This document shows, piece by piece, positions 228 through 52,154 of a DNA stretch of 64,000 nucleotides. This DNA comes from Brevundimonas sp. M20. Lineage in GTDB: Bacteria; Pseudomonadota; Alphaproteobacteria; Caulobacterales; Caulobacteraceae. The stretch spans positions 3,251,349 through 3,315,348 of the forward strand of contig NZ_CP041243.1 in the NCBI RefSeq assembly GCF_006547065.1, in the 5' to 3' direction. The notes beneath the pieces were generated by a model. It was not told the DNA's origin and did no database searches. It saw only the letters and a list, made by a program, of their open reading frames with translations. Each line of letters opens with the position of its first letter. Within the stretch, counting starts at the first letter, position 1. The translations under genes and the position numbers were made by a program.

Positions 228-257
228 GGCCTCAAGTAGCGCGAAGCGCGGTAGGCC
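228..257. repeat. 30-bp palindromic dispersed repeat (CTTGAGG family)
   Basis: Imperfect palindrome with outer arms GGCCT/AGGCC and an inner CGCG-aag-CGCG. Its reverse complement matches the second repeat unit inside ccmD (36654-36683) at 25 of 30 positions. One paired difference is compensatory: positions 2 and 29 are G-C here and C-G there, which supports a selected stem. It sits in the 100-bp gap before gshB. Confidence 0.7.
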
Positions 258-19396: not shown

Positions 19397-20020
19397 TTAC
19401 GCCGGCTCCGCCACCTTGTCCTTCTTTACCTTGGCCGGCTTTTCAGCCTTCGGAGCCTTGGCGGGCTTGTCGGCTTTCTCGGCCTTGCGAGCCGCCTTTT
19501 CAGCCTTCTTGACCTCGCGGGCGGCCTTTTTGGCGGCCTTGGCTTCCGCCTTGGCTTTCAGCGGGGCGGCGTCCGCCTCGCCGGCCAGTTCGCCCAGCAG
19601 GTCCAGGAAGACATCACGCTTGCCCTTGGGCAGCAGGCCGACGATTCGCTTGTCAGCGGCCTCGACGCGCGGGCGCGCCGCTTCCAGCGCCGCCTCGCCG
19701 GCTGGCGACAGGCGCACCGCCTTGGCGCGGGCGTCGAGCGTCGACTTCTCCCGATCCAGCAGGCCCTTGGTGGTCATCCGCGCGACCAGATCAGCGAGGG
19801 TCGAACGGTCGATGCCGGTGGCGCGCACCAGATCGGTCTGCGTCAGACCCGCCTTGTGGCTCACGGCCTCCAGCACGGCGAACTGCCGCTGGGTCAGACC
19901 GTCCGGACCCGTCTCTTCGGCATAGATATCGAGCGCCAGCTGCAAGGCGCGGTGAATCAGATGGCTGGGCGAAACGCCGAGGGCGCCGCCACGCTTGGGC
20001 TTGTTACCGGACTTGACCAT
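19397..20020 (-). CDS. MarR-family regulator with Lys/Ala-rich C-terminal tail
   Basis: A 207-residue DNA-binding protein. The winged helix-turn-helix (about 35-125) has LTQRQFAVLEAV, a recognition region TQTDLVRATGIDRSTLADLV, and the wing LLDREKSTLDARAKAVRLS, all typical of MarR dimers that sense small molecules. After about residue 150 it switches to a 55-60-residue low-complexity tail of Lys, Ala, Pro and Glu (for example KAAREVKKAEKAARKAEKA) resembling histone-H1 or AlgP-type tails, absent from ordinary MarR proteins of about 150 residues. The tail probably adds nonspecific DNA or RNA affinity. Target genes are unknown. It lies 78 bp downstream of yciB on the same strand. Confidence 0.85.
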   Translation of the reverse strand: MVKSGNKPKRGGALGVSPSHLIHRALQLALDIYAEETGPDGLTQRQFAVLEAVSHKAGLTQTDLVRATGIDRSTLADLVARMTTKGLLDREKSTLDARAKAVRLSPAGEAALEAARPRVEAADKRIVGLLPKGKRDVFLDLLGELAGEADAAPLKAKAEAKAAKKAAREVKKAEKAARKAEKADKPAKAPKAEKPAKVKKDKVAEPA

Positions 20021-35964: not shown

Positions 35965-36043
35965 GCCGACAGGGTTAATGAAAACCGTCGGAAAAGGGTT
36001 AACGCCCTGAAAGCAAGGGTTTCGGCCCCGGCTCAGACAGGGA

Positions 36044-36610
36044 TCAGCGGCTCGTGGCGGTCGGCAGCGGACGCGCAGGGGCCTGCATGGCCGCCACCAG
36101 CCGTTCGATCTCGGCGTCTTCCAGCAACGGCCCGGCGAATTTCGCGACCACCCGACCCTGGGCGTCCACGGCGAAGGTCTCCGGCGCGCCGGTGATGCCC
36201 AGATCCAGCCCGGCCCTGCCCTCGCGATCCACCAGAACCATCGAGAAGGGATTGCCCAACTCGTCCAGGAAGGCGCGGGTGGCGACCGGGTCATCCTTCC
36301 ACGCCACGCCGACGACGGCGACGCCGCGTTCCTTCAGCGCCATCAGCTTCGGATGCTCGACCCGGCAGGGCGCGCACCAGCTGGCGAAGACATTGATCAA
36401 CATCGGCCGACCGACGCCCGCCGTCTTCAGGTCCACATGGCCCGGCCCGGCTTCGGTCCCGGTCAGGATCGGCAGGACGGTCTCCGGCACGGTCTGACCG
36501 ACCAGCGCTTCCGGCTTCACCGCCGGATCGCGTTTCAACGACCAGCCGATGAACAGGGCCGACAGGGCGACCAGCACCACCAACGGAACGACAGCAAACC
36601 AGCGGCTCAT
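36044..36610 (-). CDS. dsbE: Thiol:disulfide interchange protein DsbE/CcmG
   Basis: Membrane-anchored periplasmic thioredoxin that reduces apocytochrome c or CcmH during cytochrome c maturation. The 188-residue protein has an N-terminal anchor helix (VVPLVVLVALSALFIGWSL), the CcmG-type segment MLINVFASWCAPCRVEHP with active-site Cys79/Cys82, the acidic region VVGVAWKDDP, and the cis-Pro loop ITGAPETFAVD. It starts in the stop of ccmD (ATGA overlap), placing it last in the ccmC-ccmD-dsbE unit. Confidence 0.94.
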   Translation of the reverse strand: MSRWFAVVPLVVLVALSALFIGWSLKRDPAVKPEALVGQTVPETVLPILTGTEAGPGHVDLKTAGVGRPMLINVFASWCAPCRVEHPKLMALKERGVAVVGVAWKDDPVATRAFLDELGNPFSMVLVDREGRAGLDLGITGAPETFAVDAQGRVVAKFAGPLLEDAEIERLVAAMQAPARPLPTATSR

Positions 36611-36864
36611 TCTTTTGGCCCTAACGCGCCTTGCGCTGCTTGAGGGCGAGTTTGCCCTACCGCGCCTTGCGCTGCTTGAGGGCGGGCTTGCCCTGCCGCG
36701 TCCTGCGCAGCCGGAGGGCGGTCAGCTTCGAGCCTGGCCAGCTCCGCCTTCCAGCGACGCGCCGAAACGAGAGCGCGCGCGGCCAGCGCCGCCAGCACCA
36801 CGGCGCTGACGCCCCAGGCGGGCCAGACGTAGGCGGCGTACTTCCCCATGTCGAAGTCGAGCAT
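36607..36864 (-). CDS. ccmD: Heme exporter protein CcmD with repeat-derived C-terminal tail
   Basis: An 85-residue single-span inner-membrane protein that stabilises the CcmC/CcmE heme-delivery complex. The N-terminal ~45 residues are ordinary CcmD: MGKYAAYVWPAWGVSAVVLA, then LVSARRWKAELARLEA. Residues about 49-84 are three 12-residue repeats: RPPAAQDAAGQA, RPQAAQGAVGQT and RPQAAQGALGPK. They are encoded by three tandem 36-bp copies of a palindromic DNA repeat also found in intergenic regions here. CcmD is normally 45-60 residues, so the tail is an added, in-frame product of repeat expansion. It begins 2 bp after the ccmC stop and overlaps dsbE. Confidence 0.85.
   Translation of the reverse strand: MLDFDMGKYAAYVWPAWGVSAVVLAALAARALVSARRWKAELARLEADRPPAAQDAAGQARPQAAQGAVGQTRPQAAQGALGPKE
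36618..36719. repeat. Three tandem 36-bp palindromic units inside ccmD
   Basis: Units begin at 36618, 36654 and 36690, exactly 36 bp apart. Each has a 30-bp imperfect palindrome (GCCCT at the left end, GAGGGC at the right, core TGCGCTGCTTGAGGGC) plus a 6-bp spacer. Units one and two differ at few positions; unit three is more diverged. Other copies lie at 228-257, 37608-37671 and, as a longer variant, 43758-43796. Confidence 0.85.
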
Positions 36865-36866
36865 GA

Positions 36867-37589
36867 TCAGGCCTCCAGAGCCCGGCGGGCGCGGATCGCC
36901 ACGACCCGGCGGCGCACGATCTCGGTGCGGATCGCGGTCAGCCAGATGGCGAGGAACAGGACGAACCAGGCCGCCATCATGGTCAGCAGCGGCGTCAGGA
37001 ACACCGGCGGCATCGACGGTCCGTCGGCGCGGATCAGGGAGGCGGGCTGGTGCAGGGTGTTCCACCAGTCGACCGAGAATTTCACGATCGGCAGATTGAT
37101 CAGACCGACCAGTCCCAGCACGGCGGCGGCGCGGGCGGCGCGGGCCTCATCGTCGATCGAGGCGCGCAGGGCCATGTAGCCGAGGTAGAAGAGGAACAGC
37201 ACCAGCACCGACATCAGGCGGGCGTCGCCCCATTCCCACCAGCTGCCCCACATCGGCTTGCCCCACAGGCTGCCGGTCGCCAGCGCCAGAAGGGTGTAGG
37301 CGGCGCCCGGCAGGGCGGCGGCCCGGGCCGCGGCGTCGGCCAGAGGGTGGCGAAACACCAGGGCGAAGAAGCTCGAAACGCCCAGCGCGCCATAGATCAT
37401 CAGGCCAACCGAGGCGGCCGGAACGTGCACGAACATGATCCGCACGGTGTCGCCCTGCTGATAGTCCTCGGGCGCGGCGAAGCTGAACCAGCTCCCGGCC
37501 AGAAGCAGCACGATGGCGGCTCCCCACAGCACCGGCACAAGCGGGCGCGTGAAGCGGGCGAAGCGGTCGGGATTGGCGAGGCCGAACAT
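36867..37589 (-). CDS. ccmC: Heme export protein CcmC
   Basis: Inner-membrane protein that loads heme onto CcmE during System I cytochrome c maturation. The 240-residue product has six membrane helices and the tryptophan-rich periplasmic heme-handling motif WGKPMWGSWWEWGDARL. It has conserved His residues flanking this motif (FVHVPAAS and VDWWNTLHQPAS). These features distinguish CcmC from the larger CcmF. It starts at ATG 37589 and is followed by ccmD after 2 bp. It is separated from ccmAB by two plus-strand genes, so it needs its own promoter in the 37590-37722 gap, where two repeat units also lie. Confidence 0.95.
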   Translation of the reverse strand: MFGLANPDRFARFTRPLVPVLWGAAIVLLLAGSWFSFAAPEDYQQGDTVRIMFVHVPAASVGLMIYGALGVSSFFALVFRHPLADAAARAAALPGAAYTLLALATGSLWGKPMWGSWWEWGDARLMSVLVLFLFYLGYMALRASIDDEARAARAAAVLGLVGLINLPIVKFSVDWWNTLHQPASLIRADGPSMPPVFLTPLLTMMAAWFVLFLAIWLTAIRTEIVRRRVVAIRARRALEA

Positions 37590-37607
37590 TGTGAGCGCTC
37601 TTTAATC

Positions 37608-37671
37608 GCCTCTGACGATTTGCGCTACTTGAGGCTTTGTGCGGCCTATCGCGCATCGTGCGGCTTGAAGC
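37608..37671. repeat. Two tandem units of the 36-bp palindromic repeat
   Basis: The units start 36 bp apart (37608 and 37644), the same period as inside ccmD. The first pairs GCCTC with GAGGC around TTTGCGCTACTT; the second (GCCTATCGCGCATCG...CTTGAAGC) is degenerate. They lie between the ccmC start and the PhnA-like gene, so they occupy the likely promoter region of both. Confidence 0.6.
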
Positions 37672-37722
37672 TTGACCGTTCGACATGCCAGACCGTCGCG
37701 CACCAACTCCCCGAGGACCACA

Positions 37723-37947
37723 ATGACCGACGACGTGACCAAGGATTCCAACGGCAATACCCTCGCCGACGGCGACAGCGTGACCCTGATCAAGGATCTG
37801 AAGGTCAAGGGCTCGGGCGGCGTGACCCTGAAGCGCGGCACGCTGGTGAAGAACATCCGTCTGACCGGCGACCCCGATGAAATCGAGGCCAATGTCGAGA
37901 AGGTGCGCGGCCTCGTCCTGCGCACCGAGTTCGTCAAGAAGGCCTGA
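37723..37947 (+). CDS. PhnA/YjdM C-terminal domain protein without zinc ribbon
   Basis: A 74-residue protein matching the C-terminal domain of YjdM (formerly PhnA): VTKDSNGNTLADGDSVTLIK, KGSGGVTLKRGTLVKNIRL and a closing RTEFVKKA. The N-terminal zinc-ribbon half (two CxxC pairs) of full-length YjdM is missing and no cysteines remain. GAGGA precedes ATG 37723. The family name refers to alkylphosphonate operons, but no phosphonate function is established for YjdM. It is encoded opposite to, and inside, the split ccm cluster. Confidence 0.85.
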   Translation: MTDDVTKDSNGNTLADGDSVTLIKDLKVKGSGGVTLKRGTLVKNIRLTGDPDEIEANVEKVRGLVLRTEFVKKA

Positions 37948-38023
37948 GCGCAGGTTACAAAGCCTTAAGTGGCGGGCCGTCGCCCCCTCCGGTAGCGCTT
38001 GCGTCACACCGGAGGGGAAACCG

Positions 38024-43757: not shown

Positions 43758-43796
43758 GCCCTCAAGCAGCGAGGCTCCGCGAGCCTCGCGATAGGG
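43758..43796. repeat. Long variant of the CTTGAGG palindrome after acnA
   Basis: Outer arms GCCCT/AGGG and the family word CTCAAGCAGCG flank an enlarged, perfect inner stem GCGAGGCTC-CGC-GAGCCTCGC (43769-43789). It lies 9 bp after the acnA stop, so it may also protect or terminate the transcript together with the next hairpin. Confidence 0.6.
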
Positions 43797-43807
43797 GAAC
43801 AAGAATG

Positions 43808-52104: not shown

Positions 52105-52112
52105 GCGCGCTA

Positions 52113-52154
52113 GCGCTCATGACGCCGTCATTCGCTGCTTGAGCGCAGTTTTTT
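52113..52154 (+). terminator. Intrinsic terminator of the SDR gene
   Basis: Outer stem GCGCTC/GAGCGC with an inner ATGAC-gcc-GTCAT stem, followed by GTTTTTTC. The word CGCTGCTTGAG on its 3' side is shared with the dispersed 36-bp repeat family, so it may be a domesticated copy. Confidence 0.75.

Follow-up and report, generated by a model that had tools for sequence, protein, structure and literature searches.

A short hairpin-forming repeat in ccmD, glpK and ribF of Brevundimonas, predicted to be translated into protein

When the same short palindrome is found between genes and inside the coding sequence of a small protein, the question arises which of the two is being kept, the nucleic acid or the peptide. 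This question is raised by the 3' end of ccmD in Brevundimonas sp. M20, which lies in the window analysed here, a stretch of 64,000 nucleotides (contig NZ_CP041243.1, positions 3,251,349 to 3,315,348) whose relevant features are collected in Table 1. The last 38 residues of CcmD (residues 48-85), DRPPAAQDAAGQA-RPQAAQGAVGQT-RPQAAQGALGPKE, are encoded almost wholly by a 36-bp array (36618-36720, 2.9 units) which, with a score of 143, is the top of the 12 TRF rows for the window; each 36 bp of the array holds a 30-bp imperfect palindrome, and there are three such copies (36618-36719), the last of them ending 7 nt before the dsbE ATG. An earlier, sequence-only reading had described exactly this arrangement, namely three tandem palindromic units that encode the end of CcmD and run into the ATGA overlap with dsbE, and the TRF array, the translation and the overlap of the ccmD stop with the dsbE start all bear it out. 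Two of the copies are 97% identical over the 30 bp, and the remaining copy, which comes first in the protein, is degenerate (77-80%). With copy 2 as the query, which matches itself with 0 mismatches by construction, copy 3 shows 1 mismatch, the intergenic sequence at 228-257 shows 5 and copy 1 shows 6, the best match in five Markov-resampled windows, taken as a chance control, having 9; similarly, a half-site pattern derived from the array is matched seven times in the window (two of the matches are the array itself) vs 0.32 expected. A search of 36000-38000 against Rfam 15 left the array unmatched and gave one sub-threshold match, outside the array. In the AlphaFold2 model of CcmD, residues 7-47 form a helix and the pLDDT is 48-56 in blocks beyond residue 50; the tail, presumably cytoplasmic, is predicted by this model to be disordered. 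Elsewhere in the window, 19420-19530 contains a 27- to 30-bp imperfect tandem repeat.

Table 1. Features of the window considered in the text (R1, covariance model described below)
Feature	Position	Strand	Basis
ccmD (haem exporter protein D), 85 aa	36607..36864	-	Pfam PF04995 residues 7-47; translation
ccmC	36867..37589	-	Pfam PF01578
dsbE/ccmG thioredoxin-like protein	36044..36610	-	Pfam Redoxin/AhpC-TSA
ATGA, ccmD stop overlapping dsbE start	36607..36610	-	sequence
Palindrome copy 1, degenerate, ~RPPAAQDAAGQ	36690..36719	-	without R1 match of its own
Palindrome copy 2, RPQAAQGAVGQ	36654..36683	-	R1 51.6 bits, E 1.8e-11 (own genome)
Palindrome copy 3, RPQAAQGALGP	36618..36647	-	R1 49.2 bits, E 9.3e-11
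Intergenic 30-bp element copy	228..257	+ (its CTCAAG strand)	R1 50.8 bits, E 3.1e-11
40-nt subfamily member	43758..43797	+	R1 23.5 bits, E 0.007
40-nt subfamily member	52107..52146	-	R1 23.9 bits, E 0.006
Two degenerate element-like palindromes upstream of ccmC	37620..37672	+	pattern matches; no R1 match at E 0.1
glpK 5' region, own genome	29731..30258	+	528 nt vs 561 nt in insert-bearing genomes

How widely is this palindrome dispersed? The consensus of 39 distinct ccmD copies, GCCCTCAAGCAGCGCGAAGCGCGGTAGGGC, is a 30-bp imperfect palindrome whose outer stem has 5 pairs and is separated by an asymmetric internal loop from a 4-pair inner stem, which closes a loop of 3 nt. The covariance model R1 was built from these 39 copies, so that the genome-wide counts rest on a ccmD-derived model; moreover, they are lower bounds, because scoring was confined to 150 candidates per genome, out of several thousand from the first look. 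Counted in this way, the own genome of 3,315,348 bases contains at least 44 matches at E<=0.1, eight of them below 1e-6 and two of these eight in ccmD, whereby the core is enriched genome-wide, as it should be, according to the sequence-only reading, if the tail is more than an ordinary protein repeat. Nine congeners contain at least 24-56 matches each, and the basal congener G074 at least one. An early pattern scan of the own genome, allowing <=3 mismatches, was weak (38 matches vs 21 in the reversed control), and the covariance model was used instead. In a family-wide sample under stricter filters, a match at E<=0.001 was found in 74 of 199 genomes, belonging to 6 of 22 genera, with the top scores in Brevundimonas and in one neighbouring genus (code g10). 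Besides the 30-nt class, the own genome holds a 40-nt class whose inner arm is longer and whose members are more common and score lower.

The claim that the element also lies between genes elsewhere in the window holds for the copy at 228-257, which lies 9 nt ahead of an ORF (267-1214), and probably for the two members of the 40-nt subfamily, whose scores are weak. In a sample of 89 distinct clusters from seven congeners, picked by score with ccmD excluded, 82 are intergenic according to a simple codon-based gene predictor, as are 17 of the 18 clusters of a second sample. Of the 82 intergenic clusters, 28 are no more than 20 nt from the 3' end of a gene and 18 no more than that from a 5' end, and in L277, L247, L382 and L371 copies take up a short gap between genes of the same direction. 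Elements just upstream of ccmC, as in the window, occur also in L119, L139, L132, L136, L137 and L150, in up to 3 copies and on either strand. The RAYT/Y1 transposase PF01797, the sole mobiliser family searched for, was found in 0 of 13 Brevundimonas genomes (the own one and 12 congeners, some of them incomplete), the control being positive in 5 of 14 genomes. In the open-licence literature of PubMed Central, the titles and abstract openings among the matches listed contain no description of this element.

The distribution of the element in ccmD itself was followed across the genus. Of 131 congener genomes, 127 proved to contain CcmC, and the surrounding region was read from all 127 (L117-L243), ccmD being parsed automatically in 109 loci and by eye in the other 18. 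In 43 of the 127 loci, R1 matches occur in the interval from ccmC to dsbE; there are 51 of them (of 69 in the loci), and all 51 are on the sense strand of ccmD. With degenerate tails included by eye, the element is counted in 47 of the 127 loci, the ambiguous tails of L169, L192 and L242 being scored 0. Such a comparison across related genomes, with the units counted in each, had been proposed from the M20 sequence, and it yields one to three copies per element-bearing locus. The median length of CcmD is 71 residues with the element (45 parsed loci) vs 51 without it (62 loci, range 49-68), which fits, within the genus, the 45-60 residues initially taken to be normal for this protein; an exact 12-residue difference is seen in three pairs of related loci (L122/L125, L126/L130 and L135/L134). 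Across bacteria, CcmD lengths from 37 to 100 aa are reported in the cited passage (PMC12077264). Outside the genus, a scan of 80 loci from named records gave an R1 match in 0 of 66 ccm loci of other genera (L051-L116) and showed the element in ccmD of 5 of the 12 loci labelled Brevundimonas. A search with the tail peptide among proteins of 50-157 aa gave six matches, all six to CcmD and to no other protein. The possibility, raised beforehand, that related genera have the same tail encoded by unrelated DNA has found no support within the scope covered, that is, the 66 other-genus loci and six CcmD proteins read from other Caulobacterales. In ten Brevundimonas loci (L205, L206, L213-L216, L220, L222, L225, L231), the coding sequence from the element to the ccmD stop contains a second small hairpin, of the GGGCTTCGCCC type.

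Within ccmD, the position of the element is regular. In one strand and one frame it reads without a stop as (R/G)PQ[AV]ARSA[VI]G, and four of the six strand-frame combinations are nearly always stop-free. A scan of ccmD gave 70 matches, and all 52 of those with at most 8 mismatches are in one phase; 16 matches in other phases, all with 9-10 mismatches and within the conserved ccmD body, were rejected as copies of the element on account of these mismatches. The distance from the element to the end of the ccmD stop is 11 nt in 33 of 43 loci and 26 nt in the other 10. The spacings in ccmD arrays are 36 or 39, that is, multiples of three in 9 of 9 cases, in keeping with the suggestion that the copy number changes in frame; the same is true for 3 of 3 spacings in glpK. 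In arrays elsewhere, 18 of 49 spacings are multiples of three, and all spacings are so in 10 of 30 loci, which is the chance level.

The in-frame element in glpK is the strongest parallel to ccmD. It is present in 14 of 30 fetched loci, those nearest to an insert-bearing query, and sits in the turn that separates RAIAFE from VAVSQIEL and that is short in other congeners, e.g. REQNL; we take this position to be the first beta-turn of glycerol kinase. Three more loci, chosen by match length, carry three copies (G037, 42-nt spacing), two copies (G033, 36-nt spacing) and none (G081), so that 16 of the 33 loci read have the element, all 16 being matched by R1. In-frame copies are seen in L341 (G018, 1001-1030) and in L385-L392, L399, L401, L408, L410-L412, L415 and L416. 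For the remaining 96 of the 129 genomes that gave a glpK match, match length alone was the criterion, and none has a comparable excess, the match in G032 missing the site. The own genome has the short length of the form without the insert (G000:C1:3281079-3281606). A search with the three-copy GlpK region gave four matches, all of them FGGY kinases with one copy. The third host gene is ribF, which encodes the FAD synthetase/riboflavin kinase (Pfam PF06574, PF01687): in 8 of 29 readable loci (30 were fetched), a block of 12-13 residues is inserted into the FAD synthetase domain between an EVL(S/A)G-type sequence and GLGI (L429/L435, L436-L438, L440, L441, L444, L446). R1 recognises seven of these eight inserts. 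The insert of L437 is degenerate; L429, which comes from the second sample, is the FAD synthetase. None of the other 98 of 128 ribF genomes, judged by match length alone, is longer. In both glpK and ribF, the strand and frame of the inserts are identical to those in ccmD. Pairs 2 to 4 of the outer stem do not vary among the glpK inserts and hardly vary among those in ribF, a sign of inheritance at each site.

The 7 of the 89 clusters that were predicted to lie in or across genes were rechecked by Pfam and translation. One of them, L341, is the glycerol kinase copy described above, and it was copies of this kind, inside genes, that drew attention to glpK. L306 and L352 have no Pfam family, look spurious and were discarded as element-bearing genes. 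In L333 (G018) and L316 (G096), from 1001, the element provides the TAG stop of an EamA-family transporter, with one copy in one of them vs three in the other. Element-like matches in a phage baseplate hub gene (L343 of G018, 1001-1030) and in a terminase gene (L280 of the own genome, 1501-1530) might each be an insertion or due to chance. In L347 (G003, 1001-1108), three copies with a 39-nt spacing give SRFALLEA repeats past the DUF6065 Pfam domain, on the strand opposite to that of the other cases and with an unsure gene boundary at this C-terminus.

How could the element have come to occupy these sites? On the ccmC tree, 79 of 125 rows have no copy in ccmD, 39 have one, five have two and two have three. 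The tree, which was built from a single gene of 720 nt and leaves 33 of its 122 inner branches open, requires 16 changes of presence, 11 of them forced by starred branches, or 14 with a stricter list of 41 loci (43 by the full count, L172 being omitted and L243 lying outside the tree); these changes are gains or losses, which the tree does not separate. The seven array-bearing loci are seven separate tips. The notion that a palindrome has invaded ccmD and expanded there is sustained inasmuch as the element is REP-like and coding here, and has to be widened inasmuch as it is genus-wide and not private to one strain. The simplest history, itself a special case of the explanation that we prefer, would be one ancestral insertion into ccmD followed by vertical inheritance and many losses, without repeated mobility. 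Such a history would account for the constant strand and frame and for the near-constant distance to the ccmD stop, and the glpK and ribF inserts each retain their own outer-stem type; however, a single gain requires about 22 independent losses from ccmD, with separate origins for the inserts in glpK and ribF. We regard it as a real possibility, towards which we do not quite incline.

Whatever the history, it may be asked at which level the tail is constrained. In the 39 distinct ccmD copies, 98.0% of stem cells are paired vs 90.0% in shuffled ones, 25 cells show a double change vs 5.5, and the covariation score is 0.240 vs 0.077 (0 of 500 shuffles in each case); this sample leans towards structure, because the copies were picked at <=5 mismatches to the paired consensus. 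Two other measures show no excess, namely the number of pairs with a double change (3 vs 2.2, 167 of 500 shuffles) and that of further pair types (8 vs 6.2, 41 of 500 shuffles). Pairs 2-29, 3-28 and 13-21 of the ccmD copies change on both sides (CG, UA, GC), and like swaps are seen at pairs 2-29, 3-28 and 14-20 among 91 distinct genomic 30-nt copies found with R1. These stem swaps accompany linked changes of residues, e.g. from RPQ...G to RAQ...A and from VARSA to VVRST.

A hairpin with a covarying stem between ccmD and dsbE could also be a selected mRNA element that tunes the translational coupling of the two genes, supplies or hides the ribosome-binding site of dsbE, or protects the upstream mRNA. 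Although the last copy lies 7 nt before the dsbE ATG in 33 of 43 loci, the initiation region folds no more stably than its shuffled versions (mean z -0.29 in the presence of the element, 0.17 in its absence) and the pairing with the anti-SD is weaker when the element is present (-4.86 vs -7.08 kcal/mol), an SD-like core being found in 34 of 45 loci with the element vs 48 of 51 without it. The ATGA overlap, in turn, is present in all 45 parsed element loci vs 51 of the 62 without the element, and some copies elsewhere occupy short gaps between co-directional genes; yet most congeners dispense with the element altogether, and in glpK and ribF it is located mid-gene. A role of the hairpin as a selected mRNA signal seems, on balance, improbable.

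As to the peptide, the codon adaptation index (CAI) of the ccmD tail is 0.239 vs 0.615 for the body, and none of 420 windows of the same length (38 codons) from the genes of the window has a CAI that low; with the codon table of this genome, the CAI of the tail is below that of the body in 41 of 41 loci with intact copies. In 467 pairs from single-copy loci, pairs that are not independent and in which the tail comprises a short stretch of 11 codons, pN/pS is 1.13 for the tail vs 0.56 for the body, and pS is 0.164 vs 0.261. From the sequences compared, the constraint on the ccmD tail looks to be at the level of the nucleic acid rather than of the peptide. That the tail is an ordinary tandem repeat of a protein, selected as a peptide with the palindrome as an incidental feature, is very improbable: the single frame throughout and the presence of the peptide motif in three proteins would favour it, but the pN/pS of about 1.1 with a low pS, the very rare codons, the occurrence of the same DNA between genes at dozens of sites and the linked residue changes that track base pairing all speak against it. 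By the same token, the proposal that the palindrome has been domesticated as coding sequence did not hold up, given the pN/pS values, the atypical codons and the prevalence of congeners without the tail; tolerated or structure-maintained DNA fits the ccmD tail better than domestication.

Taken together, these data can be accommodated by the following scenario, which we consider very probably correct: a dispersed, REP-like palindrome is tolerated in frame within ccmD, glpK and ribF, is kept as a hairpin and duplicates locally. The element is a short dispersed palindrome of 30 bp, with a related 40-bp form, and has the genomic habit of a REP. Most of the sampled copies are intergenic, and inside three housekeeping genes one strand and one frame are used, at the C-terminal tail of ccmD, the first beta-turn of glpK and a site in the FAD synthetase domain of ribF. 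The sites of tolerance would be the ends and turns of proteins, and the element may be tolerated in genes because the peptide is small and hydrophilic and, in CcmD, predicted to be disordered. It is the hairpin and not the peptide that seems to be retained, as the partners in the stem change together and with them the paired residues (e.g. P..G to A..A); this might be brought about by selection on a hairpin, by copying between family members, or by template switching that corrects the palindrome. Slippage or unequal recombination would then probably duplicate the unit within ccmD and glpK, and copies at spacings other than multiples of three would be lost because the frame and, in ccmD, the coupling of ATGA to dsbE must hold. 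The scenario of a tolerated hairpin can be extended to a mobile palindrome that has evolved a 'harmless' frame, PQxARSAxG, and, moved by a novel enzyme, repeatedly enters conserved genes on one strand and in this one frame out of four nearly stop-free options, to be amplified there in frame; this extension is tentative and, in our estimate, rather doubtful, but, if true, it would amount to a protein-coding selfish repeat of the type of the Rickettsia palindromic elements (RPE) in a free-living bacterium.

The best-known palindromes that code for protein are those of Rickettsia and Wolbachia; in these intracellular bacteria, whose genomes are reduced, invasion and decay are hard to separate. 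In Brevundimonas, three orthologous coding sites are available in a free-living, culturable genus, and therefore gain, loss, amplification and tolerance by the protein are directly testable. More than 100 species have been sequenced, with 0 to 3 copies of the element in ccmD and glpK, the element shows how nucleic-acid pairing is accompanied by linked amino-acid changes, and the length differences of CcmD, GlpK and RibF in this genus are partly due to it.

How does the element compare with the known palindromic repeats? The GTAG- and CGTC-tagged REPs, as the cited passages describe them, are palindromes of 20-40 bp that are mainly intergenic, form arrays, lie in some cases wholly inside ORFs, sometimes supply a TAG stop and, in clusters, encode 43-82 aa (PMC3733652). 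The Brevundimonas element shares with them the size range, the many copies and the mainly intergenic location, but none of the 39 and none of the 136 aligned copies has a terminal GTAG or CGTC, GTAG/CTAC occurring in the ends or flanks of 1 of 84 and internally in 25 of 39 and 81 of 136 copies; furthermore, unlike the GTAG REPs, it is not accompanied by a RAYT (PF01797) in the 13 Brevundimonas genomes. The CIR (CcrM-associated intergenic repeat) sequences of Caulobacter and Brucella, likewise alphaproteobacterial and with inverted arms, are described as being about 110 bp long, with the methylation site GANTC and with stops in all frames (PMC2229807), whereas the Brevundimonas element is 30 bp long, lacks GANTC in all 39 and all 136 copies, and has open frames. 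With PARCEL, the palindromic amphipathic coding repeats, which according to the cited account are repeats of coding sequences (PMC2996958), it has in common that it is palindromic, protein-coding and tandem; it differs in being mostly non-coding and in encoding a peptide that is predicted to be disordered. In habit the element also resembles the RPE (Ogata et al. 2000), with analogues in Wolbachia and Methanocaldococcus (PMC2229807, PMC2996958, as far as the passages cited go). The RPE unit is given as 105-146 bp (PMC2229807), and the Brevundimonas unit, with 30 bp or, in the subfamily, 40 bp, falls below this range; the free-living host and the in-frame tandem arrays are further differences. 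Like the RPE, however, the Brevundimonas palindromes are dispersed between genes and are found also in frame within conserved protein genes, and in this sense, by analogy of behaviour and not by comparison of sequences, the element works like an RPE, and also like the intragenic REPs.
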